From a virus, in IMG/VR virus record IMGVR_UViG_3300032316_000872, positions 1 to 30,152 of that record: 30,152 nt of DNA. The stretch is one strand, 5' to 3'. Below are positions 7,568-29,667 of this stretch, piece by piece. The notes under the pieces were generated by a model that was given only the letters and a program-made list of their open reading frames with translations, did no database searches and was not told the DNA's origin. Made by a program: the position numbers and the translations under genes. Each line of letters opens with the position of its first letter. The first letter of the stretch is position 1.

Positions 7568-10500
7568 ATGGCACGATTACTATCAGGACGAGTTAAAAAA
7601 GTACCCGCCACTGAAGCGGATCCAGGCCGGTATGAATTTTTAGAACTGAGCCAGGCAGAACCAGATCTTGGAGTTCCGGCCACTGACGGTCAGGTCCTGG
7701 CAAGTACAACCACCGGCACACGCAGTTGGGTGGACCCAGATTTTGGGCCAATTGGAGCTACCGGTGCATCGGGCCTAGCCGGACCACAAGGACCACAAGG
7801 ACCACAAGGACCATCGGGTGCCACAGGACCAGACGGAGCCACCGGCGCCACCGGCATTGAAGGAGCCACTGGACTAACAGGAGCCACTGGCCTGGATGGA
7901 GCCACTGGAGCCAATGGCCTAGATGGAGCCACAGGATTAACAGGTGCAACTGGCCTAGATGGAGCCACAGGCGCAACTGGCCCAGAAGGCGCCACTGGTC
8001 TAGATGGAGCCACTGGACTAAATGGCGCAACTGGAGCCAATGGCCTAGAAGGAGCCACAGGGGTAACAGGAGCCACCGGACCAGACGGAGCCACTGGTGC
8101 GTCAGGCATACAGGGCGAAATTGGAGCCACTGGCGAAGGAGCCACTGGCGCAAGTGGAGTTCAGGGCGAAATTGGAGCTACTGGTGCAAGTGGTTTAACA
8201 GGCACAACAGGACCACAAGGACCACAAGGACCACAAGGATTTGAAGGTGCCACAGGTGCAAGTGGCATACAAGGAGAGATCGGTGCCACTGGTGCATCAG
8301 GTGTTCAGGGCGAGATTGGAGCAACTGGTGCGTCAGGACCACCGGGTGCCACTGGCCTAGGAGCCACTGGCGCATCAGGAGTTAGAGGGTCAACAGGATT
8401 TGACGGAGCCACTGGTGCTGCTGGCACATCAGTGACCATTATTGGTTCAGTACCAGATGTAAATGTTACTCCACCCAATAATCCACAGACCACACTTAAC
8501 GCGGCATTTCCGTCAGCTGTGGCAGGTAATGGAGTTATAGATGATGCAACTGGAAATCTATGGGTCTACGATGGCGCTGTTTGGAACAATGTGGGTCAAA
8601 TCAAAGGTGATCAAGGATCTACAGGAGCTACCGGCGCATCAGGCATACAAGGACCTACAGGCGCAACAGGTCTTACCGGTACGCCAGGAGCGACCGGAGC
8701 CACCGGACTAACCGGAGCAACTGGAGCAGGAGCTACAGGCGCATCTGGCGTTCAAGGCAATGCAGGAGCCACCGGATTAGAAGGAGCTACTGGTGCCGGT
8801 GGCACACAGGGTGATGTAGGTGCTACAGGTGCAAGTGGTTTAACCGGCACAACAGGACCACAAGGACCACAAGGACCACAAGGATCACAAGGATCACAAG
8901 GATCCACGGGTGCATCAGGACTTACAGGTGCATCAGGACCCACAGGACCACAAGGACCACCGGGTGCCACTGGCATCACAGGAACACCGGGTGCCACAGG
9001 AACACAGGGTGCCACAGGTGCATCAGGCGCAACAGGTCCCACAGGAACACCGGGTGCCACAGGAACACAGGGTGCCACAGGTGCATCAGGCGCAACAGGT
9101 CCCACAGGAACACCAGGTGCCACAGGAACACAGGGTGCCACAGGTGCATCGGGCGCAACAGGTCCCACAGGAACACCAGGTGCCACGGGTGCATCAGGGC
9201 TTGCAGGCGCGACCGGTATAGGGGCAACTGGCATAGAAGGAGCTACAGGTGCATCAGGAATTGAAGGACCACAAGGACCACGTGGACCACAAGGGCCACA
9301 AGGATCAACAGGTGCGTCGGGTCTAACAGGTGCAACCGGAGCAGGTGCAACTGGCGCATCGGGCGCAACTGGACCCACAGGCCCAACCGGTCCTACTGGT
9401 GCAACAGGGTCTGGAGCCACTGGCGCATCGGGCGCATCAGGTGCAACTGGCGCATCAGGTCTCGTAGGTACTACCGGCCCACAAGGACCACAAGGACCAA
9501 TTGGACCACAAGGACCTATCGGTCCTGCTGGTGCAACCGGAGCAGGTGCAACTGGCGCATCAGGCGCAACAGGTCCCACAGGTCCTACAGGACCACAAGG
9601 ACCACCGGGTGCCACTGGTGTAGGATCATCAGGCACAATTGGATCTACCGGAGCTTCTGGTCCACAAGGACCACAGGGTGCCACTGGTGTGGGATCAACA
9701 GGCACAATTGGATCTACCGGAGCTTCTGGTCCACAAGGACCACAGGGTGCCACTGGTGTGGGATCAACAGGCACAATTGGATCTACCGGAGCAACTGGAT
9801 TTCAGGGCGCCACCGGCACAATTGGAGCAACTGGAGCAAGCGGATTAGCCGGCCCTGGCAACACTATCCTAGCTACTGATACTACCGACAACTCAACATT
9901 TTATCCTGTGTTTGTGCCGGCAGTTAGTTCAAATCAAACTGTATTTGCTGACGATCCTAATTTGCGATACATACCTGCTACTGGTATATTTTTTGCCAAT
10001 GCTGTGTCGTTGGTAGGCAACGTTACTAGTGGAAACGTAATTGTTTCTAATAACATTAGCGGCGCCACACTGATTACTGCAACCACAATGTCGGCTTCGG
10101 GAAACATTACTGGCAATGCATTAATTTCAAACAGCTCTATTACCGGTACCAGCCTGTCAGTATCAACTGGCAGTATTACGGTGGGCAACATAGTCAATGC
10201 CAATGGCAATGGAGTGGGTAATATTGGCTCGTCCAGCACCTATTTCAATACCATATTTGCTCAAGCCACATCAGCACAGTACGCTGACTTGGCCGAACAC
10301 TACGAATCTGATGCCAACTATGTTCCGGGAACAGTAGTGGTGTTTGGTGGACACAAGGAAATCACGGTTACACAAATGCGGGCAGATGCCAGAGTGGCCG
10401 GGGCGGTGTCAACCCAGCCAGCTTATTTGATGAATACGCAGTGTGCAGGTTTACCAATAGCCTTGCGAGGTCGTGTGCCAGTGCAAGTAGTAGGTCCAGT

Positions 10501-10651
10501 GGCCAAAGGCGACAGCCTAGTCACCAGTACCGAATCTGGCTATGCCGAAAGTGTAGGACAAGATACATCCTACGGTCAGGCAGTGTTTGCTAAGTCTTTA
10601 GAAACTGATCTAGCTCCTGGCAAAAAAAACATTACAGCGGTGATATTGTAA
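7568..10651 (+). CDS. Collagen-like fibre protein with a C-terminal assembly-type domain
   Basis: The protein has 1027 residues. Residues 1-60 form a short head. From about 61 to 765 the sequence is almost entirely Gly-X-Y triplets, mainly GAT, GAS, GPQ and GPT, as in bacterial and phage collagen-like proteins that form trimeric rods. A non-collagen island at 286-345 ([14 protein letters not shown] to [14 protein letters not shown]) interrupts the rod. Short breaks such as GVGS add flexible points. Residues 766-900 are fibre-type beta repeats. Residues 902-1027 begin [12 protein letters not shown] and include [18 protein letters not shown], a conserved C-terminal domain of marine phage fibres that might help trimerise or fold the protein. 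A self-cleaving chaperone like peptidase G2 is possible but unproven. Two blocks of near-identical DNA repeats lie inside. The likely role is a long appendage or adhesin. Confidence 0.8.
8981..9196 (+). repeat. 63-bp tandem repeat, three full copies plus a partial one
   Basis: Copies at 8981-9043, 9044-9106 and 9107-9169 are nearly identical, and a partial copy reaches about 9196. Each encodes seven Gly-X-Y triplets (21 residues). The period is a whole number of triplets, so gain or loss of a copy keeps both reading frame and collagen register. Confidence 0.9.
9617..9817 (+). repeat. 69-bp tandem repeat, two full copies plus a partial one
   Basis: Copies at 9617-9685 and 9686-9754 are almost identical, and a third at 9755-9817 is diverged and shortened. 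Each encodes 23 residues starting GVGS[ST]GTIGSTG, so every copy brings a built-in break in the Gly-X-Y register. Confidence 0.88.
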
Positions 10652-10718: not shown

Positions 10719-11147
10719 CTAGGTCTGCTGTTGTATAGTTTGAATTTTACTTTGTACAGCATCAAAATTCACAGTTGACCACAGACCAGGATGCATGGGT
10801 TTGGGCCATATGCCCGAAGCCAACCAGGCCCAGCCAGTGTGTTCGTGATTTAGATCAGGTACAAATTCCTGGGCTACACTGCAAAAAAAAGTATGATATG
10901 CAAAATGCTGGTCGCTAGTGGTAAATTTTTCTAACGGCACCAAACGGATATAGTTGGGCATGGCTCCTAGTTCTTCTTTACACTCTCTTGTGATTGTTGC
11001 CATCAAAGTTTCGCCAGGCTCGATACGTCCTCCGGGCAGGCCCCAAGAGTCAGGATGTTTGGCGTCATCACGCATGAGATACAGGTATCGACCTGTGTTG
11101 ACAGCATAAAACCAAACGCCAACTGCTGCTACAGCACTAGTCTCCAT
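10719..11147 (-). CDS. Nudix hydrolase
   Basis: This 142-residue protein starts at ATG 11147, three bases after a strong GGGAGG on the minus strand. The frame extends 18 codons further upstream, but that part lies inside gp15 and lacks a ribosome-binding site. The Nudix box GX5EX7REUXEEXGU is complete from G40: E46, R54-E55, E58-E59 and G61, with SWGLPGGR just before it. These residues bind the metal and catalyse hydrolysis of nucleoside diphosphates linked to another moiety. The substrate cannot be read: oxidised dNTP, ADP-ribose, dinucleoside polyphosphate and NAD- or RNA-cap-type substrates are all possible. T4 has a Nudix enzyme, NudE, but orthology is not claimed. The gene overlaps the 3' end of gp15 by 19 bases, so it is co-transcribed with neck genes and probably expressed late. 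It converges on the collagen-like gene across 67 bases with no clear terminator. Confidence 0.88.
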   Translation of the reverse strand: METSAVAAVGVWFYAVNTGRYLYLMRDDAKHPDSWGLPGGRIEPGETLMATITRECKEELGAMPNYIRLVPLEKFTTSDQHFAYHTFFCSVAQEFVPDLNHEHTGWAWLASGIWPKPMHPGLWSTVNFDAVQSKIQTIQQQT

Positions 11148-12535
11148 GTGCCTCCCGGATAAAGACCTTGATAACTTTTGATCCACGCGGTACCAGTCCA
11201 CTCGTACTGTATGCCTGTGGTAATATTTGTAACGTACTGCAGATTGTCTGGACTTGACGTTGATTCAAATGCCACAATCCACTTGGCACCGTCATATTCA
11301 ATTATGTCATTGGCTTGTGCCACTAGCGGTTGTCCATCATTGCCTTGCCAGATCACAGCGTTTCCCTGATTGTATGTACCTGTGGCCTCAGTCAACAGAT
11401 ACCTTTGTCCTGTTGCATCGAGTGGCAGTCCTGATCCTGGGCCCGATCGCAAAGGATCGATTACAGCAGTCACTGGATTAAGTGTGTTGCCCGGCACTGT
11501 GTCTTCGTCTACACTAAACAACAGGAACCGATCGTCAGTGGGGTCAAATGCCACGGTGCCAATTACTTCGGAACCGTCCTGTTGTTCCAGACGGATCTGG
11601 CTAATACCTGGTCTTAGCACACCATACAAGCCCACAATGCTGGGCCACAGTAGATTGCTGTCAGGCGAATCTGCTGGAGTTAAACTGGTGTTGGGTTCAT
11701 CCACGACCTGTTGTTGCCGTAAAGCCTGCAGTTGATTACCAATCAACAAGGTCTGATATGAATAAGGGGTAATGACCTGTCGTGTGCCCAACAACAGATC
11801 ATTGTCTAGGATAGCATTAGAAGCGTCTCCTTTGGCGTCAAATACATTGGCCACAATACGTTCGACCACACCCAGTTTCTTGACCTTGGCCGGACTGGAC
11901 AACCATATGGGCAGAGTAAATGTCAAGGTGCTGATGTCTATGGAATTGTCTGTGCCAATTGGTACAGTTCTACTACTCCATTTGGTGCTTTGTAGCTCGC
12001 ATACCGACAGGCTGGTCCAGTCAATGTAGTTGTCAGTGCCTTGTATTTCCAGGGCCGGATTGAACAGCACAAGAATCTGTTCCAACAGTTGGAATTTTTG
12101 ATTGGTATTTGAAGTCCAGATATCTAGATTCATGGTCAGTTTGTAAGGCACTGGCATGAGACGATCTATGGTAAATGCATTGCCCTGTGTGGTTTCATAG
12201 GTGTCAGTGTCCGCATCATAGGTGCGTTGACGCACAGCAATGGTGCTGATAAAATTGGGTTCTTGTATCCTGGGCCGATCATAGTCCAGTGCCGTGATAT
12301 AAAAGGTCATCATGGGTGTGGATGGCATGGTGCTGGCCGAGTTGTTGTTCAGCACAGTCTGTGCCTGTCGGCTCCAATCGCCATACTTGACCGGCACACG
12401 TATTAAGGTATGATTGGCGCCTTCTTCGTCACGTCCGTACTCCACATTGAAGTTTGAAAATATTCTAGCAAACTGCAACATGAAACGACGTATTTGTTCA
12501 TCGTAAAAAAAAGTTGGACCTGAAAATGTTGGCAT
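11129..12535 (-). CDS. 15: Tail terminator / sheath stabiliser (T4 gp15-like) with a C-terminal extension
   Basis: The protein has 468 residues; T4 gp15 has 272. The N-terminal 250 follow T4 gp15 in order: FFYDEQIRRFMLQFARIFSN, then TLIRVPVKYGDWSRQAQTVL, then the TFYITALDYDRPR strand, the PVPYKLTMNLDIWTSNTNQKFQLLEQIL core and the LTFTLPIWLSSP strand. gp15 forms the hexamer that caps the tail tube and sheath and docks to the neck. The additional 200 residues are not in T4. They hold two Trp/Tyr-rich modules (IIEYDGAKWIV at about 412-420 and YEWTGTAWIK near 447-456) and end GGTWRLVL. The ATG follows the gp14 stop codon directly, so the genes form an operon in the order gp14-gp15-Nudix. The extension probably faces outward as decoration. 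Confidence 0.88.
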   Translation of the reverse strand: MPTFSGPTFFYDEQIRRFMLQFARIFSNFNVEYGRDEEGANHTLIRVPVKYGDWSRQAQTVLNNNSASTMPSTPMMTFYITALDYDRPRIQEPNFISTIAVRQRTYDADTDTYETTQGNAFTIDRLMPVPYKLTMNLDIWTSNTNQKFQLLEQILVLFNPALEIQGTDNYIDWTSLSVCELQSTKWSSRTVPIGTDNSIDISTLTFTLPIWLSSPAKVKKLGVVERIVANVFDAKGDASNAILDNDLLLGTRQVITPYSYQTLLIGNQLQALRQQQVVDEPNTSLTPADSPDSNLLWPSIVGLYGVLRPGISQIRLEQQDGSEVIGTVAFDPTDDRFLLFSVDEDTVPGNTLNPVTAVIDPLRSGPGSGLPLDATGQRYLLTEATGTYNQGNAVIWQGNDGQPLVAQANDIIEYDGAKWIVAFESTSSPDNLQYVTNITTGIQYEWTGTAWIKSYQGLYPGGTWRLVL

Positions 12536-14260: not shown

Positions 14261-15412
14261 ATGAACGCACGAGCTACCAACGTAATAAAACCGTTGAATC
14301 CCAAAGGGGCAGAAACCAAATATGTAGGACACGAACCTGCGTGGAAAATCCAGCCAGAAGCCAACAATCGCATCAGTGCGTTCAGCAAGGCCTTTGCCTG
14401 GTATAACTACCACTATGGCAAGCGTGACGCCAAGGAGATGCTGTGCCAGTACCTAGAGATCAACAACAGAAGCCGAGATGCTAAAACCATGCGTGGCATT
14501 CCGGACAGTCAGATACGACTCACACCGGCCTGGGTGTGCAGAATGACTCTGATGGGTCTAGTGTTGAATGAACACGAACAAGGTATCATTGACGATCAAA
14601 TAGCCAACATGCTTAAGATTAAACAGGAAGCCAAACGTGAAAAATCCGAAGTAGATGCCGAAGCCGCAGTGGCCAAGCTGACCATTCAGGATCATCTACG
14701 TGAAAAGGTCAGTGAGTGCGCCGGAGAACTAGAAGGCATGTTTGATGAATTTATCCGGGCCGGCGCCAAGATGAGTGCCGACTGGAAACCCATTGCACAA
14801 ATCCGCGGCATGAACATCAGCCCCAACATGGTGGGTACCATTGGTGATGTGTGGAAGATCAAACTGGCAGAGTTTGAAGAAGTGCTAGAAGGTGCAGATG
14901 CCGATCTAGTGGAAGGCTACAGTCATCTAAGCAAAAATCAGCTCAAGCAGTGCGTGAAATTTATTGAGCAGGTTATTGCTGACTGTAGCAGTTATGTCAG
15001 CATCAAGAAAACTGAACGCAAACCTCGAGCTAAAAAAGCAGCAAATCCAGTCAAGGTAGTGGCCAAGTTCAAGTATCTTAGAGAGTTTGAAGAACTCAAA
15101 CTCAAGTCAGTTGCCTCAACTGATTTAATAAATGCCAGCGAAGCCTGGCTGTATGACACTGCCAAGCGCAAGTTGATTCATGTGGTTGCTGACAGCCACT
15201 TAGGCACGTTTACTGTTAAAGGATCTGCTATTATTGCGTATGACGCATCACAAACTGTGGCAAAAACTCTACGTAAACCAGCAGAGCAACTCAAAGGTAT
15301 TGTTGGTGCTGGTAAACCAGCTGCCAGGAAAGCGTTTGGTGATATTAAATCCACAGAAACCAAGTTCAACGGTCGCGGCAACGAGAATTTAGTTATTTTG
15401 AAGGCGTGGTAG
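14261..15412 (+). CDS. Unknown 383-residue phage protein, early-type expression
   Basis: The start is ATG 14261 with GGAGAG just upstream; a frame to 14207 exists but overlaps the promoter. Residues 1-90 are basic and aromatic (FAWYNYHYGKRDAKEMLCQYLEI). Residues 110-160 form a charged helix (LKIKQEAKREKSEVDAEAAVAKL). After a helical middle comes a basic linker (KKTERKPRAKKAANPVKVV). The C-terminal 110 residues start AKFKYLREFEELKLKS, pass through SEAWLYDTAKRKLIHVVADS, KGSAIIAYD and KTLRKPAEQL, and end NENLVILKAW. I have seen this C-terminal pattern in marine myovirus proteins without an assigned function. The basic linker suggests nucleic-acid or chromosome contact, which is inferred. The 3' end overlaps the convergent GIY-YIG gene by 24 bases. 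Confidence 0.65.
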   Translation: MNARATNVIKPLNPKGAETKYVGHEPAWKIQPEANNRISAFSKAFAWYNYHYGKRDAKEMLCQYLEINNRSRDAKTMRGIPDSQIRLTPAWVCRMTLMGLVLNEHEQGIIDDQIANMLKIKQEAKREKSEVDAEAAVAKLTIQDHLREKVSECAGELEGMFDEFIRAGAKMSADWKPIAQIRGMNISPNMVGTIGDVWKIKLAEFEEVLEGADADLVEGYSHLSKNQLKQCVKFIEQVIADCSSYVSIKKTERKPRAKKAANPVKVVAKFKYLREFEELKLKSVASTDLINASEAWLYDTAKRKLIHVVADSHLGTFTVKGSAIIAYDASQTVAKTLRKPAEQLKGIVGAGKPAARKAFGDIKSTETKFNGRGNENLVILKAW

Positions 15413-15973
15413 TTTCTTATATTTTCCACGCTTTTTTCCTAACTTAGCTAATCTAATTTTATCAATAGTAGATTGAGGCGTAACTTTACCTTTAAGAGAT
15501 TGACTAATATTAGCTCGCCATTGAGAAATCTCATCTGGGGTGCGAGCTAACATAGTAGCTTGTCTTTTAGCTTTTGTACTGACTGAATGAGGAGCAGTGT
15601 TTTTACCTTTATTACCTTTACTGATTTTATCGCGAGTCTCTTGCGTTCGTAATACTCCGGTGCCCCCATCGCCGCCGTCTGTTTTATTGTACAAAACGCC
15701 CGTATTATTATCTATTCTACCGTACCAGCGAATAAATTTACGTTCTAAGATAAATGCTCCCATCTCGAGTAATCCGTAACTTACTATAACGATTCTTGAT
15801 GTATCCTTGGGAGTTTGTATCCCGCCATATTTGCCAGTAGTTTTATTTTTTATTCTGTGAGTGACCCATGCTCTGATGTTGCAACCTTTACCACAATAAT
15901 ACGGAGTATCGTCTTCTCTTAGATAGAGATAAACGTAAAAGCCAGGCGGCGGATTATTTTTTGTAAATATCAT
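15389..15973 (-). CDS. GIY-YIG homing endonuclease with NUMOD3-like repeats
   Basis: The protein has 194 residues from ATG 15973, with GGAG nine bases upstream on the minus strand. The frame stays open a further 47 codons, into the gp13 leader and start, but without signals. Residues 11-35 hold the catalytic fold start: G11-F-Y-V-Y, then YYCGKGCNIRAW with the conserved Arg34. A helix LLEMGAFILERKFIRWYG supplies the catalytic Glu, followed by NNTGVLYNKTDGGDGG. The C-terminal 90 residues carry NUMOD3-like DNA-binding repeats (DKISKGNKGKNTAP and ISQSLKGKVTPQSTIDKIRLAK). Such enzymes nick or cut DNA at a target allele and spread their own gene. The gene is visibly more AT-rich than its neighbours and lies between gp14 and gp13, which are adjacent in T4. 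It appears to be a recent selfish insertion. Confidence 0.92.
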   Translation of the reverse strand: MIFTKNNPPPGFYVYLYLREDDTPYYCGKGCNIRAWVTHRIKNKTTGKYGGIQTPKDTSRIVIVSYGLLEMGAFILERKFIRWYGRIDNNTGVLYNKTDGGDGGTGVLRTQETRDKISKGNKGKNTAPHSVSTKAKRQATMLARTPDEISQWRANISQSLKGKVTPQSTIDKIRLAKLGKKRGKYKKLPRLQNN

Positions 15974-16035
15974 TGCTGATTGCTCCTTCAAAGCGTTAGA
16001 GTAGTTGGGAATTCCACTTCCGCGAACTACACCTT

Positions 16036-16043
16036 TATTTATA
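16036..16043 (-). promoter_or_regulatory. T4 late promoter, exact octamer (minus strand)
   Basis: TATAAATA on the minus strand lies 62 bases before the GIY-YIG start at 15973. It shares two bases (16042-16043) with the exact octamer on the other strand. Confidence 0.6.
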
Positions 16044-16049
16044 TAAATA
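16042..16049 (+). promoter_or_regulatory. T4 late promoter, exact octamer, for gp13
   Basis: TATAAATA at 16042-16049 matches the T4 late consensus at all eight positions. It sits 22 bases before the gp13 start, with GGAG between them as ribosome-binding site. Confidence 0.75.
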
Positions 16050-16071
16050 CAGGGAACACGGAGTTTCCTAA

Positions 16072-16851
16072 ATGACAGCCCAAAGTACACAAGCACAAAA
16101 CAGCCTAGAAACACTCAAACAACAACTGTTTGATTATGTACAACTGACCCTGGGTGGTCAGATTGTGGACCTTGAATTGGATGCCGATCACTATGAAACT
16201 GCTTATCAGCGCACTATTGGCACTTACCGTCAACGGGCACAAAATGCCTATGAAGAAAGCTACACCTTTATGGAGTTGGTCACAAACGTCAACATCTATA
16301 CCTTGCCGCAGGAAGTGATCACTGTGCGGCAAATATTCCGCAGAACCTTTGGCGACTCAACTGGCCCGTTTGCCAGCAATTTTGATCCATTCAGTCAGGC
16401 TTCGATGAACGTGTATCTCATGAACTTTAACGTGGCCGGTGGCCTGGCCACTTACGACTTTTACAGCCAGTATGTGGAACTGGCTGGGCGAATGTTTGGT
16501 GCTTATATGAACTATACCTGGAATCCTGTGACCAAAAAACTGCAATTGATCCGAGATCCAAAAGGCACCGGAGAGAATGTTCTGCTTTGGACATACAATT
16601 TGAAACCCGAAATAAACTTGTTAAGCGATTTTCAAATTAATCAATGGATCCGCGACTACATGGTTGCTGCTTCCAAAATGATTATTGGCGAAGCACGTGA
16701 AAAGTTTGGAGCCTATGCAGGCCCACAGGGCGGCAGCCAACTTAATGGTACACAACTCAAAACCGAAGCGCAAACACAAATGGACATTCAAATTGAAGGT
16801 CTCAAAAATTATATCGACGGCAGCCAACCAATTACCTGGGTAATCGGATAG
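16072..16851 (+). CDS. 13: Neck protein (T4 gp13-like)
   Basis: The protein has 259 residues from ATG 16072, with GGAG about 8 bases upstream. The N-terminal region (LKQQLFDYVQLTLGGQIVDLELDADHYETAYQRTIGTYRQR) follows the T4 gp13 opening LKDVILRRLGAPIINVELT with its conserved helix-strand-helix. The C-terminal region (NQWIRDYMVAASKMIIGEAREKFGAY, then QLNGTQLKTEAQTQMD) matches the gp13 order of NRWVKDYATALAKE followed by a Gly-rich turn and INGQRLIEEA. Both proteins end on a short hydrophobic G (TWVIG here, GILVG in T4). gp13 forms the ring between portal and gp14 that closes the filled head. Its partner genes 14 and 15 are nearby but face the other way, separated by about 2.1 kb, unlike the tandem 13-14-15 of T4. 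The middle of the protein is less certain. Confidence 0.85.
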   Translation: MTAQSTQAQNSLETLKQQLFDYVQLTLGGQIVDLELDADHYETAYQRTIGTYRQRAQNAYEESYTFMELVTNVNIYTLPQEVITVRQIFRRTFGDSTGPFASNFDPFSQASMNVYLMNFNVAGGLATYDFYSQYVELAGRMFGAYMNYTWNPVTKKLQLIRDPKGTGENVLLWTYNLKPEINLLSDFQINQWIRDYMVAASKMIIGEAREKFGAYAGPQGGSQLNGTQLKTEAQTQMDIQIEGLKNYIDGSQPITWVIG

Positions 16852-25043: not shown

Positions 25044-25652
25044 ATGAAAAATTTTCAAGAATACCTGGCCGAAAGCCAAAGAACTTATAATTACAGAATC
25101 AAAATTGTGGGCGATGTTGCGCCAGATTTTGTCAAAATGCTGGAAGAAAAACTTCGACAATTTGATCCTGTAAAAATTTCAACCATTAAAAAAACACCCA
25201 TACAGGCCAAGCCTGCAGACTTTCCTGCTGCTGCCAATGAAAGCGTGGCCAGCATGGATGTAGAGTTTCGCTATCCAGCCATTGAGCCACAGATACAACA
25301 GCTGGCACAACTGCTGGGTCTAAATCCCAATCGTATCCGCTTGCTGACTACTGCTTACGAAGACAGCATGGCTGAAGAGAAAGACAAGATTGCGGATCAA
25401 AACAAAGACCTATTGACCGACACAGACTATCCTGCACCTGATGCAGAACAACGGGCACTCAGCAAGGACTATTCAGCTGATCCGTACAAGCATGCTGTGT
25501 TGAAAAATGCTTACCGCAGTGAATTCACTGTGGCTGGTGGTAAAACACCTCCTGCAGAAACCACAAACGATTTACCAATGGGTAACACCAGCCCAATGAC
25601 CAAAGTCAAGAGACCACCACGCCCTGCAACCGGCGCCAACCCAAGAGGATAA
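25044..25652 (+). CDS. Candidate head-internal protein with a T4 IP-type N-terminal leader
   Basis: The protein has 202 residues. MKNFQEYLAES resembles the capsid-targeting leader of T4 internal proteins (MKTYQEFIAEA), including LAE followed by a small residue, the gp21 protease consensus (L/I-x-E, then A/S/G). After possible cleavage at E10, residues 14-110 form a small alpha/beta region (TYNYRIKIVGDVAPDFVKMLEEKLRQFD, then VASMDVEFRYPAIEPQIQQLAQLLGL) with the strand-helix-strand order of a ferredoxin-like fold. The tail is rich in Pro, Thr and Asp and probably disordered. No known family was recognised. Late expression and the position directly after gp16 suit a head component, either an internal cargo protein or a core/scaffold factor. 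Confidence 0.65.
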   Translation: MKNFQEYLAESQRTYNYRIKIVGDVAPDFVKMLEEKLRQFDPVKISTIKKTPIQAKPADFPAAANESVASMDVEFRYPAIEPQIQQLAQLLGLNPNRIRLLTTAYEDSMAEEKDKIADQNKDLLTDTDYPAPDAEQRALSKDYSADPYKHAVLKNAYRSEFTVAGGKTPPAETTNDLPMGNTSPMTKVKRPPRPATGANPRG

Positions 25653-25657
25653 TTAGA

Positions 25658-27781
25658 ATGACATTTTTTTACGATCTCAACAAACGCCTGGCCGACTTGG
25701 CTAAAAAACAAGACCTCACTGAGTCTGTACAAAGTGAGGCTAAAACTAAAAGACTTCCGGGTTTGCCGATTACTCAAAAAGATGTAGAGAAAAAATTTGG
25801 TGGATCAATGATTAAAATGGCTCAAGCAGCCAAGGAAGCTGGGTTTAGTGATGCTCGCATTGCTCAAGCTATGGACGACTTAAAACAAGGTAAAAATCCT
25901 AATGATCTAGCCGAAGCCGATTACTCAGCTAAAAAAGCTGCCGCTGGTAAAGACATTGGCAAGCCTGGAAAAATGTTTAGTAAGATTGCCAAAAGTGCAG
26001 GCAAAGAATACGGTAGCAAAGCAGCCGGGGAACGTGTGGCCGGAGCTGTATTAAATAAGTTGCGTGCCAAAGAAAGTGTTGACAAAGCCGAAGTAGACGA
26101 AAGCGCACTCCAGGCCTACATTGGCGACAAAAAATATGGCAAGAAGGGCATGGATGCACTTCGCAAGGCCGGACGTGAAGGTGCCAGCAAAGACAAAATG
26201 AGTCAGATCCGCAATCGTTACGACAAAATGGACGAAGCCGACATGGAAGAAGGCAATGAGTTTAGTGGCGAGTTAGCGCAAGCCCGTGCGTCTGGTGCAA
26301 AAGAATTCAAAGTCGATGGCAAGTCATATCCAGTCAAGGAAGGCGGAACGCCAATGACACCTAAACAAAAATCATTTGCTAAACTAGCACCTCCTGCCAA
26401 CAAGATCACATTTGCTGACAAGATTGCCGGCGCCAAGAAAGAAGTTGATGAAATGTTGGGTGATGTGGCCGCAGAAGCAATTAAAAGTGCTGTTGGAAAA
26501 AAGAAAGAACCACGTAGCAAGGGCACAGCGTTTGATCCAGAAGTGCTCAAGACCATGACAGCTACAGACCGGCATCCACGCTACGATGTCAAAGATACAG
26601 GTTATTCAAAACGTTATACTCGTAAGGTCCAAGACGAACCTGCTGATGATGCAGAAGTCAGTACAGAACCCAAGAAAAAGGGTCGTCCAAAGGGACCAGA
26701 TCGTGGTCCTGAGCGTGTTACTGCCAAGAGTTACAAATACAAGTCCGGTCGTCCTGGCAAAGCTATGGAAGGCAATATGGATCCAGCTGATTCGGGCGAG
26801 TATGATCGCGAAGGTGACATGGCCAAAGAACAGATGCACACTATTATAAGTGCGGCCAAAGAACTGCACCGCATCCTACGTGATGATGAAAACTTGCCAG
26901 AGTGGGTACAGAAAAAGATCACTCTAGCCAAGGAATACATTGACACCGCCAGAGACTACATGCTGACACAACATGCCGAACGTGCAGAAGAAGAGCCCAT
27001 TGCTGAAAAAGCTGTAAGCAAAAAACAACAACGGTTCATGGGCATGGCACATGCCATGCAAAAAGGTGAAAAAATCAAAGGCGCCGGTTCTGAACTTAAA
27101 AAAGTTGCCAAGACCATGAAAAAAGGCGATGTAGAAGATTTTGCCAAGACCAAACACAACGGCTTGCCAGAAAAAGCCAAGGCCAAAAAAACTGAAGGAG
27201 CCAAACCAGACTTCTTAGACGTAGACAAAGACGGCGACAAAAAAGAGCCAATGAAAAAAGCCGCCGGTGAGAAGAAAGAAAAGAAAGTTGAAGAAACGTC
27301 CACTGAGTCAACAACCAGTAAAGGTGGCTACAACTTTGGTGGTGGTGTATACGAAAGCCTAGACCGCAAATTTCAACAGGCTCTTACTGAAGGCATGAAT
27401 GTGTCAGTAAACATGAGCACAGGTCAAGACGGCAACCCCACAAAGAACATCACAATCAGTGCCGACGGCGAAGATGCTGACAAATTGGCCGACCTATTAA
27501 AAATGGCCGGACTTGACAGTCAAGATTCTACATGCAACACTTGTGGATCGACACCTTGTGGCTGTGAGAGCTTGGATGAGAACTCACCTGACTGGCCAAC
27601 CAATACCGAAACATCAGACAATGCCATGCAGTATTCGGGCGGCCTTAACGGTCCTAAGAGCACAGGTCAAACAACTGTTCCTGTAATTGCCAGTCAGTTG
27701 CGTAGACAGGTCAGCATGGAAGAAGGCGTAAAAATTGAGCAGTCCCTGTTCAAGCTGTACAATCAATACAAGCTCAAATGA
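25658..27781 (+). CDS. Large Lys/Ala/Glu-rich virion protein with AT-hook-like and DUF3008-like regions
   Basis: The protein has 707 residues. MTFFYDLNKRLADLAKK is a familiar start in marine myovirus contigs. Possible prohead-protease sites are L20-T-E-S and L576-T-E-G. Residues 65-250 are helical and charged. K339-K-K-G342-R-P-K is a canonical AT-hook core and a second GRP lies at 364-366, so minor-groove DNA contact is possible. Residues 453-506 (VSKKQQRFMGMAHAMQKGE to FAKTKHNGLPEK) resemble DUF3008. D521-V-D-K-D-G-D looks like a Ca-binding turn. C626-xx-C629-xxxx-C634-x-C636 may bind metal. The C-terminus ends MEEGVKIEQSLFKLYNQYKLK. A head-core or packaged DNA-binding protein is the working idea. 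The start follows AGAGGA and couples to the gene before. Confidence 0.65.
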   Translation: MTFFYDLNKRLADLAKKQDLTESVQSEAKTKRLPGLPITQKDVEKKFGGSMIKMAQAAKEAGFSDARIAQAMDDLKQGKNPNDLAEADYSAKKAAAGKDIGKPGKMFSKIAKSAGKEYGSKAAGERVAGAVLNKLRAKESVDKAEVDESALQAYIGDKKYGKKGMDALRKAGREGASKDKMSQIRNRYDKMDEADMEEGNEFSGELAQARASGAKEFKVDGKSYPVKEGGTPMTPKQKSFAKLAPPANKITFADKIAGAKKEVDEMLGDVAAEAIKSAVGKKKEPRSKGTAFDPEVLKTMTATDRHPRYDVKDTGYSKRYTRKVQDEPADDAEVSTEPKKKGRPKGPDRGPERVTAKSYKYKSGRPGKAMEGNMDPADSGEYDREGDMAKEQMHTIISAAKELHRILRDDENLPEWVQKKITLAKEYIDTARDYMLTQHAERAEEEPIAEKAVSKKQQRFMGMAHAMQKGEKIKGAGSELKKVAKTMKKGDVEDFAKTKHNGLPEKAKAKKTEGAKPDFLDVDKDGDKKEPMKKAAGEKKEKKVEETSTESTTSKGGYNFGGGVYESLDRKFQQALTEGMNVSVNMSTGQDGNPTKNITISADGEDADKLADLLKMAGLDSQDSTCNTCGSTPCGCESLDENSPDWPTNTETSDNAMQYSGGLNGPKSTGQTTVPVIASQLRRQVSMEEGVKIEQSLFKLYNQYKLK

Positions 27782-28611
27782 AAACGCTAAAAGAATACAT
27801 TGCCGAATCTGAATCATGGATGCAAACACCAGCAGACGGTGATGTGTTTGCTATTGAATTTGAAGACGACACACTAGTAGAAACTTATATCATAGAAGTA
27901 GCCGACGACTGTATTTTGTTGGATGCTACCCCAGAAATCATGGCTGTGTTGGAACAATGGGCTGCACTGGAAGACACCGATGAAGGCGATTCGGGTGTGA
28001 TACTTGAGACCATGGGCTATGGCAGTCTTGTGGGTGAAGAAGATGATCCATACGCACAGTTGCGTAAAGATGCTGCCGCAATGACCGCACAGCAAATGAC
28101 ATCTAAATCTTCTGCGCCCAAACCTGGATTTATGGCGCAGGTCGGCGACAAGATCATAGGCGGAGTCAAAGGTGCTGCTAAAGGATTTGCAGGAGGCGCA
28201 ACCGCTGTAGAAGAAGGCGCCATGAAGCACGAAATGATGCAGAATGCTGAACGCATGAGCCTGGCGCAGTTTAAGGACCGCTATGGTGACGAAGATTGGA
28301 TCGAAGAATTTTGGAACGCTATCATGGGCGACATCGACGAAGCCAAGTATCAAGGCCGTGAGGTTCAGTTAAACAAGCCCATGGCCGGCGATGTAAAAAA
28401 ATCAAAAGTGTATGTGCGAGATCCTGCCACTGGCAACATCAAAAAAGTAAACTTTGGACACGGTGGCAAGACTGCCAAGCGTCTTGGTCAAAAGACCATG
28501 AAAATCAAAAAATCAAATCCTGCTCGCAGAAAGAGTTTTAGAGCTCGTCATAACTGTGCGAATCCGGGACCAAAAACCAAGGCGCGATATTGGTCGTGTC
28601 GTGCCTGGTAA
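27778..28611 (+). CDS. Candidate head-internal protein: leader, acidic half, basic Cys-containing tail
   Basis: The protein has 277 residues and overlaps the previous gene by 4 bases (ATGA). MKTLKEYIAES is even closer to the T4 internal-protein leader MKTYQEFIAEA, with IAE followed by Ser at the expected protease site. Residues 15-100 are strongly acidic (FEDDTLVETYIIEVADD). Residues 110-140 are Gly/Ala-rich (KIIGGVKGAAKGFAGGA). From about 190 the chain becomes very basic: KYQGREVQLNKPMAGDVKKSKVYV, then NPARRKSFRARHNCANPGPKTKARYWSCRAW. That ending, with two Cys and an Arg/Trp pattern, recurs in marine T4-like phage proteins of unknown role. The acidic and basic halves could contact each other or DNA. 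No catalytic motif was seen. Confidence 0.65.
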   Translation: MKTLKEYIAESESWMQTPADGDVFAIEFEDDTLVETYIIEVADDCILLDATPEIMAVLEQWAALEDTDEGDSGVILETMGYGSLVGEEDDPYAQLRKDAAAMTAQQMTSKSSAPKPGFMAQVGDKIIGGVKGAAKGFAGGATAVEEGAMKHEMMQNAERMSLAQFKDRYGDEDWIEEFWNAIMGDIDEAKYQGREVQLNKPMAGDVKKSKVYVRDPATGNIKKVNFGHGGKTAKRLGQKTMKIKKSNPARRKSFRARHNCANPGPKTKARYWSCRAW

Positions 28612-28921: not shown

Positions 28922-29287
28922 GTGCGAGCTCGAGAGTTTCTCATGGAGAAACACGCTGGTAAAATTGGACAACGAAAAAGTCAATCCACGGTTGGTCTTA
29001 ACAAGTTTAGCAATGTGTCCGATAGATATTACGAACTCAATCGAGTTATGATGGCCGTGGCCTCCACAGATGGTACATTTGTTCCAGACACAGATCACGA
29101 ATCTTGGGTAGGACATAACAATGTAGCCATGCCCTACACTGAAGTTGAACAACGCATGTTGGAAAAAGCATTCCAAGCAGTAGGAGTAGACTACAAAGAC
29201 CTCAACAATGGCGATTTAAAAAGTAAAGAATTAACCAGCACCAATATTCAAAGTCCAGTTACTGGATTCAAGGGATACCCTAGATGA
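28922..29287 (+). CDS. MRAREF-family candidate head-internal protein (GTG start)
   Basis: The protein has 121 residues from GTG 28922. The start is supported by GGAGG at 28908-28912, nine bases upstream, and by the MRAREFLMEK leader it gives. That leader has the same order as MKTYQEFIAE of T4 internal proteins (basic, then E-F-hydrophobic-x-E) with one residue fewer. Lys rather than a small residue follows the Glu, so protease cleavage is less certain here. The middle is basic at the start (KIGQRKSQSTVGLNKF) with a helix ending VEQRMLEKAFQAVGVDYKDL. It ends IQSPVTGFKGYPR, almost the same tag as the next gene's RSPINSFKGYPR. The two genes overlap at ATGA. Function is unknown. Confidence 0.6.
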   Translation: MRAREFLMEKHAGKIGQRKSQSTVGLNKFSNVSDRYYELNRVMMAVASTDGTFVPDTDHESWVGHNNVAMPYTEVEQRMLEKAFQAVGVDYKDLNNGDLKSKELTSTNIQSPVTGFKGYPR

Positions 29288-29667
29288 GAGCCCGTGAATT
29301 TGTCACAGAAAGCCGTGCAAAACTTCCGGTAGAGGCCAGTGCTCCCATGCACGACACCTACATGTTGCCAGGCTTAAGAAACAACGATGCATATCGTAGC
29401 TACAGATTTGGTGTGGCCATGGCCCGTGCCCGAGCTGACATAGGCGGCGACGGCAAAGATTTACCCAAGTGGAATACCGAAAGTGCCATGGGCATGTATG
29501 GTATTGTGGCCGGCTTTGACGAAACAGTAGATCCTGTGATTGATCTGGCGCTAAAAATGACCAACATACCGGGCGGCAAAATAGCTGTAAGTTCAGATGC
29601 TAGCGAAGAACCTGCATATGTGGACACACGCAGTCCAATAAATAGTTTTAAAGGATACCCAAGATAA
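29284..29667 (+). CDS. MRAREF-family candidate head-internal protein, paralogous tags
   Basis: The protein has 127 residues from ATG 29284, overlapping the previous gene by 4 bases. It starts MRAREFVTESRAK, with VTE then Ser, close to a protease site. It ends with the FKGYPR tag shared with its neighbour. The body between the tags (APMHDTYMLPGLRNNDAYRSYRFGVAMARARADIGGDGKDL, then TESAMGMYGIVAGFDETVDP) shows no clear similarity to the upstream gene. There is a helix rich in Ala and Arg and a Gly-Asp-Gly turn. Its TAA overlaps the next ATG by one base (TAATG). The pattern suggests modular cargo built on common end tags. No enzyme motif was recognised. Confidence 0.6.
   Translation: MRAREFVTESRAKLPVEASAPMHDTYMLPGLRNNDAYRSYRFGVAMARARADIGGDGKDLPKWNTESAMGMYGIVAGFDETVDPVIDLALKMTNIPGGKIAVSSDASEEPAYVDTRSPINSFKGYPR

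Follow-up and report, generated by a model that had tools for sequence, protein, structure and literature searches.

Genes A (28922..29287; GTG start, 121 amino acids) and B (29284..29667; ATG start, 127 amino acids), both on the plus strand of the window, a 30,152-base record of one uncultured virus, are most likely tandem paralogues of uncultured T4-like phages whose products are loaded into the prohead as internal proteins, carrying a capsid-targeting-like leader clipped after Glu9 and a family-specific tail. The two genes overlap by 4 bases (ATGA, the start of B lying over the stop of A). Both open reading frames were found in place, and the MRAREF starts and SP-x-x-x-FKGYPR ends that the initial annotation had reported for the two proteins were confirmed. 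Specifically, the leaders, MRAREFLME in A (28922..28948, read from the GTG start) and MRAREFVTE in B (29284..29310), each have a predicted gp21-type cut after Glu9. They are followed on the same strand by cores of about residues 10-110 in A (28949..29251) and about residues 10-116 in B (29311..29631), and by the C-terminal tails SPVTGFKGYPR (29252..29284) and SPINSFKGYPR (29632..29664). Structure predictions of fair confidence (pTM 0.60 and mean pLDDT 81.6 for A; 0.57 and 83.5 for B) place helices at residues 35-48 and 74-87 together with short strands in the core of A, and helices at residues 36-53 and 82-93 in that of B. The model of A yielded no PDB match and no useful viral match in a fold search, and that of B matched one uncultured-phage protein. 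Neither protein had a convincing match in PHROGs, Pfam, NCBIfam or PDB sequences, and relatives were absent from the cultured phages among 50,697 phage records searched. Both proteins are near neutral (net charge +1 for A and -1 for B; family median 0).

The centres of the two proteins had initially been described as lacking clear similarity, and a core swap between shared end tags had been proposed. However, BLASTP on the complete proteins, with their tags, already pairs A with B along the entire sequence (27%, E 6e-9). With the tags cut off, single linkage of BLAST matches (E<1e-4) unites 178 of the 180 family cores, and a profile-profile comparison of the A and B cores, again without tags, aligns 97 columns with a probability of 98% (E 2.5e-13), as against at most 4.6% for the controls (12 column-shuffled and one reversed B profile). 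The core-only tree resolves three clades, A, B and an additional type C, each as a single group (support 96/94, 99/90 and 100/99, respectively). A core-only HMM, built without either tag, recovered 247 open reading frames in the loci fetched with both proteins, mostly as pairs and with 2-4 in most loci; the tandem family is present in about 110 uncultured phage loci, in 2-4 copies. The features of tandem duplication are thereby found together, the neighbours being homologous over their full length and on the same strand, with a copy number that differs among relatives. Sensitive alignment had been named beforehand as able to refute the cassette idea; it returned homologous cores and hence duplication. 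Because the tag-free cores are homologous over their full length and belong to distinct clades, each well supported, within a single family, we regard A and B as paralogues and not as swapped cores; judged from their sequences, they represent an ancient, strongly diverged and otherwise ordinary duplication.

A cassette system, in which recombination would have swapped unrelated core modules of A and B between end tags that stay conserved, is thus very improbable: it is refuted for the window pair by the full-length homology and single family tree of the cores, and tags and core co-occur in nearly all members. The idea does hold elsewhere, in a tandem copy at L023:6369-6722 that carries both tags around an unrelated core, a bacterial transporter-suffix domain (NF033684, E 2.6e-16), with a near-identical copy at L025:6369-6722 (L025 is 99.99% the same as L023). 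On sequence grounds this is a natural core replacement, by one event; because that event lies in near-identical phages, core swapping is possible but its routine use is not established. Recombination at the tags, when tested, left as its sole outcome a likeness of synonymous codons in the C-terminal tag that is somewhat greater within a locus (0.531) than between loci (0.464; permutation p 0.007, several tests having been made), a weak sign of occasional conversion.

The tail itself, SPVxxFKGYPR, is confined to the family (140 of 144 pattern matches, the other 4 being fragments or short frames), and some members end otherwise after SPV, for example with SPVAKPKKNKYGV. The suggestion that it forms a second packaging or protease signal was not borne out, the tail being family-restricted, devoid of the [ILV]xE form and replaced by other endings in some members; as a protease site it was rejected on the last two grounds. 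It is best taken as an inherited, family-specific segment, whose role is most likely that of a binding or folding element common to the paralogues. As for the similar DNA noted at both stop codons, it derives mostly from conserved residues and from start/stop overlap coding (an Arg codon plus TGA over the next ATG, or TAATG); the ATGA overlap occurs in 88 of 178 members and a TAATG-type overlap in 29 of 178.

At the other end of the protein, Met1, Arg2, Ala3 and Glu9 are invariant in the 178 members, whose selection used Met-Arg-Ala and partly Glu5/Phe6, Glu9 being no part of it, and position 7 is Ile, Val or Leu in at least 98%. The last three residues of the resulting family pattern, MRAxEF[ILV]xE, correspond to the [ILV]xE shape of gp21 sites. 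Among the 247 open reading frames of the core-only search, 236 carry the leader; the exceptions are three MRAQEFITISE variants, truncations at contig edges, MKAKDVIGES (L034), MRFREIMEQ (L110 and L111), and L078:7032-7328 and L079, where the leader gives way to a signal-peptide-like start and the second half of a B core follows.

The leader is portable: in these phages, many unrelated proteins also start with it. When DNA was scanned for exact matches to MRAxEF[ILV]xE, blind to the downstream sequence, at least 120 loci were hit; among the matches listed, 151 leaders comprise 79 on family members, 69 on other cores and 3 on incomplete frames, and the C-terminal tag occurs on none of these 69 non-family cores. 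The looser pattern M[RK]A.[EDQ]F[ILV].E stands at 150 non-recruiting starts, versus 0-1 for seven scrambled versions, across the 93,023 start codons of the fetched loci, which puts the leader well above chance, and the reversed pattern was found in none of 37 records. Over all fetched loci, at least 90 leader-bearing non-family proteins (among them those of L023 and L043, met in the first scans, and a few that came up in the scan for the C-terminal tag) fall into 33 core groups by BLAST with the leader removed, one of which, with 41 proteins, was probably chained via shared domains. Their Pfam matches include GH19 chitinase, GNAT, M23, LysM, ADP-ribosyltransferase exoenzyme and, weakly, Kinase-PolyVal. 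T4-like contigs that carry A and B contain further leader genes with unrelated cores, far from A and B. Of the initial proposal that a targeting leader is kept while cores change, the wider part is therefore supported, given the 69 non-family frames among the matches listed and the T4-like motif, and the part concerning the A/B pair falls. Two local arrangements were also seen: at L043:991-1833, MRAKEFLSE precedes an unrelated 280-amino-acid protein that lacks the C-terminal tag and adjoins family members, and in L147, L206, L224 and L227 leader genes with differing cores are clustered in contigs in which no S77 gene was detected. No account of a comparable leader in metagenomic phages turned up in the literature that was searched, an outcome that does not establish that none exists.

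The leader resembles the propeptides of T4 internal proteins. IPIII and IPII of T4 start with MKTYQEFIAEA; in IPIII the first 10 residues are enough for packaging, while processing depends on residues 8 and 10 (PMC9026906). The matching positions in the A/B leader are 7 and 9, and hhalign sets REFLME on QEFIAE unprompted, with the low probability of so short a match. The leader thus has those features of a capsid-targeting peptide that can be read from sequence, namely a length of about 10 residues at the N-terminus, a hydrophobic residue two positions ahead of the Glu at the predicted cut, the same leader on unrelated mature parts, and an S77 (gp21-type) protease in the phage group. That protease exceeds the cut-off in 9 of 20 contigs carrying A and B; among 30 contigs from the leader scan, which bear mostly non-family leaders and are mostly fragments, only 2 show an S77 gene. 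Of 11 related contigs, the majority picked for having S77, 10 encode a T4-like Gp23. In all 10 capsid proteins the propeptide junction, at the place of FLTE|A in T4 gp23, reads L-x-E, a likeness that is no more than supportive, because the alignment contains a long gap. The 30-kb window, itself a fragment, shows no protease or capsid gene.

The surroundings of A and B are structural. T4-like neck, head-closure and other structural genes lie upstream of them in the window, with putative sheath and tube genes assigned by position and length from gene order and the order in phage PA5oct. Two upstream genes with unrelated cores carry T4-like leaders in versions of MKxxxEY[LI]AE, namely MKNFQEYLAES (25044..25652, plus strand) and MKTLKEYIAES (27778..28611, plus strand). 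Matches to the leader shape [KR]x..E[FY][ILV]xE across the loci retrieved with A and B are concentrated in three gene families of one cluster, with 241, 73 and about 24 of 347 matches, and these families are A/B and those of the two upstream genes. The PA5oct homologue of the gene at 25044 lies in a similar gene order and carries a structural-protein annotation from ESI-MS/MS, although the x-E cut form is missing from its N-terminus. The C-terminal 90 residues encoded at 27778-28611 form a domain ending in YWSCRAW that recurs in Pelagibacter, Roseobacter, Methylophilales and Flavobacterium phage records. Elsewhere in the window, a minus-strand frame at 15389-16114, adjoining the neck gene, resembles a GIY-YIG homing endonuclease, and another at 10719-11201 (minus strand) a Nudix hydrolase, both by sequence appearance only; a long collagen-like Gly-x-y repeat protein at 7568-10651 probably lies in the tail-fibre region.

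Two other readings of the shared start can be weighed against packaging. It could be an uncleaved address for somewhere other than the head, such as a phage-nucleus or tail-assembly signal, as might be expected from the scattered loci at which lysins, acetyltransferases and further enzymes carry it and from the many carrier contigs without a detected S77 or Gp23 gene. We consider this unlikely, since the leader matches the T4 capsid-targeting motif together with the [ILV]xE cut form, A and B adjoin other genes with T4-like leaders in a structural region, and the L-x-E junction occurs in capsid proteins. Retention of the start for translation initiation or overlap coding, rather than as a peptide, would fit the many copies in which ATGA overlaps the previous stop, but has next to no probability: the leader is kept as a peptide, its residues fixed while synonymous codons vary freely (AGA/CGA, GAA/GAG, TTT/TTC), which contradicts that reading, and scrambled-residue controls give only 0-1 matches.

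A and B are therefore best viewed as probable head-internal proteins with a cleaved leader. Under this scenario, an old duplication would have produced the tandem pair in a group of uncultured T4-like phages; the nine-residue propeptide MRAxEF[ILV]xE would dock the protein in the prohead core, the phage gp21-type protease would then cut after Glu9, and the mature protein would stay inside the head, possibly to be ejected with the DNA. Peptidoglycan hydrolases, matched among the leader-bearing proteins, would be an unusual head cargo and count against packaging.

Since these leader features are present and the mature parts are not homologous, A and B may work like a T4 internal protein without being members of IPI-III. 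The likeness to T4 IPI, IPII and IPIII lies in a short propeptide with E-F-I-x-E and a hydrophobic-x-Glu cut form on small proteins, a leader common to dissimilar mature parts, and S77 and Gp23 in the phage group. By contrast, the A/B leader MRAxEFIxE is one residue shorter, and the mature domain is unrelated to T4 IPI-III (hhalign probabilities 0.7, 15.8 and 0.1). T4 internal proteins are also basic (PMC9026906), unlike the near-neutral A and B, which as tandem paralogues also share a conserved tail at the C-terminus. The matches of some leader-bearing proteins to ADP-ribosyltransferase, to GNAT and, weakly, to Kinase-PolyVal models recall T4 Alt and polyvalent proteins, which are head-packaged, injected effectors; A and B, however, match no such domain, and their packaging is a prediction. 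The ejection proteins of the giant phages SPN3US and phiKZ, reported to be head proteins that a prohead protease cuts and that are then ejected, offer a further parallel, although they belong to another phage group and have no established sequence relation to A and B.

Beyond the A/B family, the chances are about even that in a widespread group of uncultured T4-like phages MRAxEF[ILV]xE acts as a general head-import address for many unrelated proteins, enzymes included, with new cores placeable behind the leader and, once, between both tags. If the leader is a capsid-targeting propeptide, this nine-residue pattern would allow head-packaged and probably injected proteins to be recognised from sequence alone in uncultured phages, where almost none of these proteins has a name. 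The T4 internal-protein principle would then reach beyond the cultured relatives of T4, and a leader scan would list the injected proteins of phages never grown, providing a concrete set of candidate early effectors.
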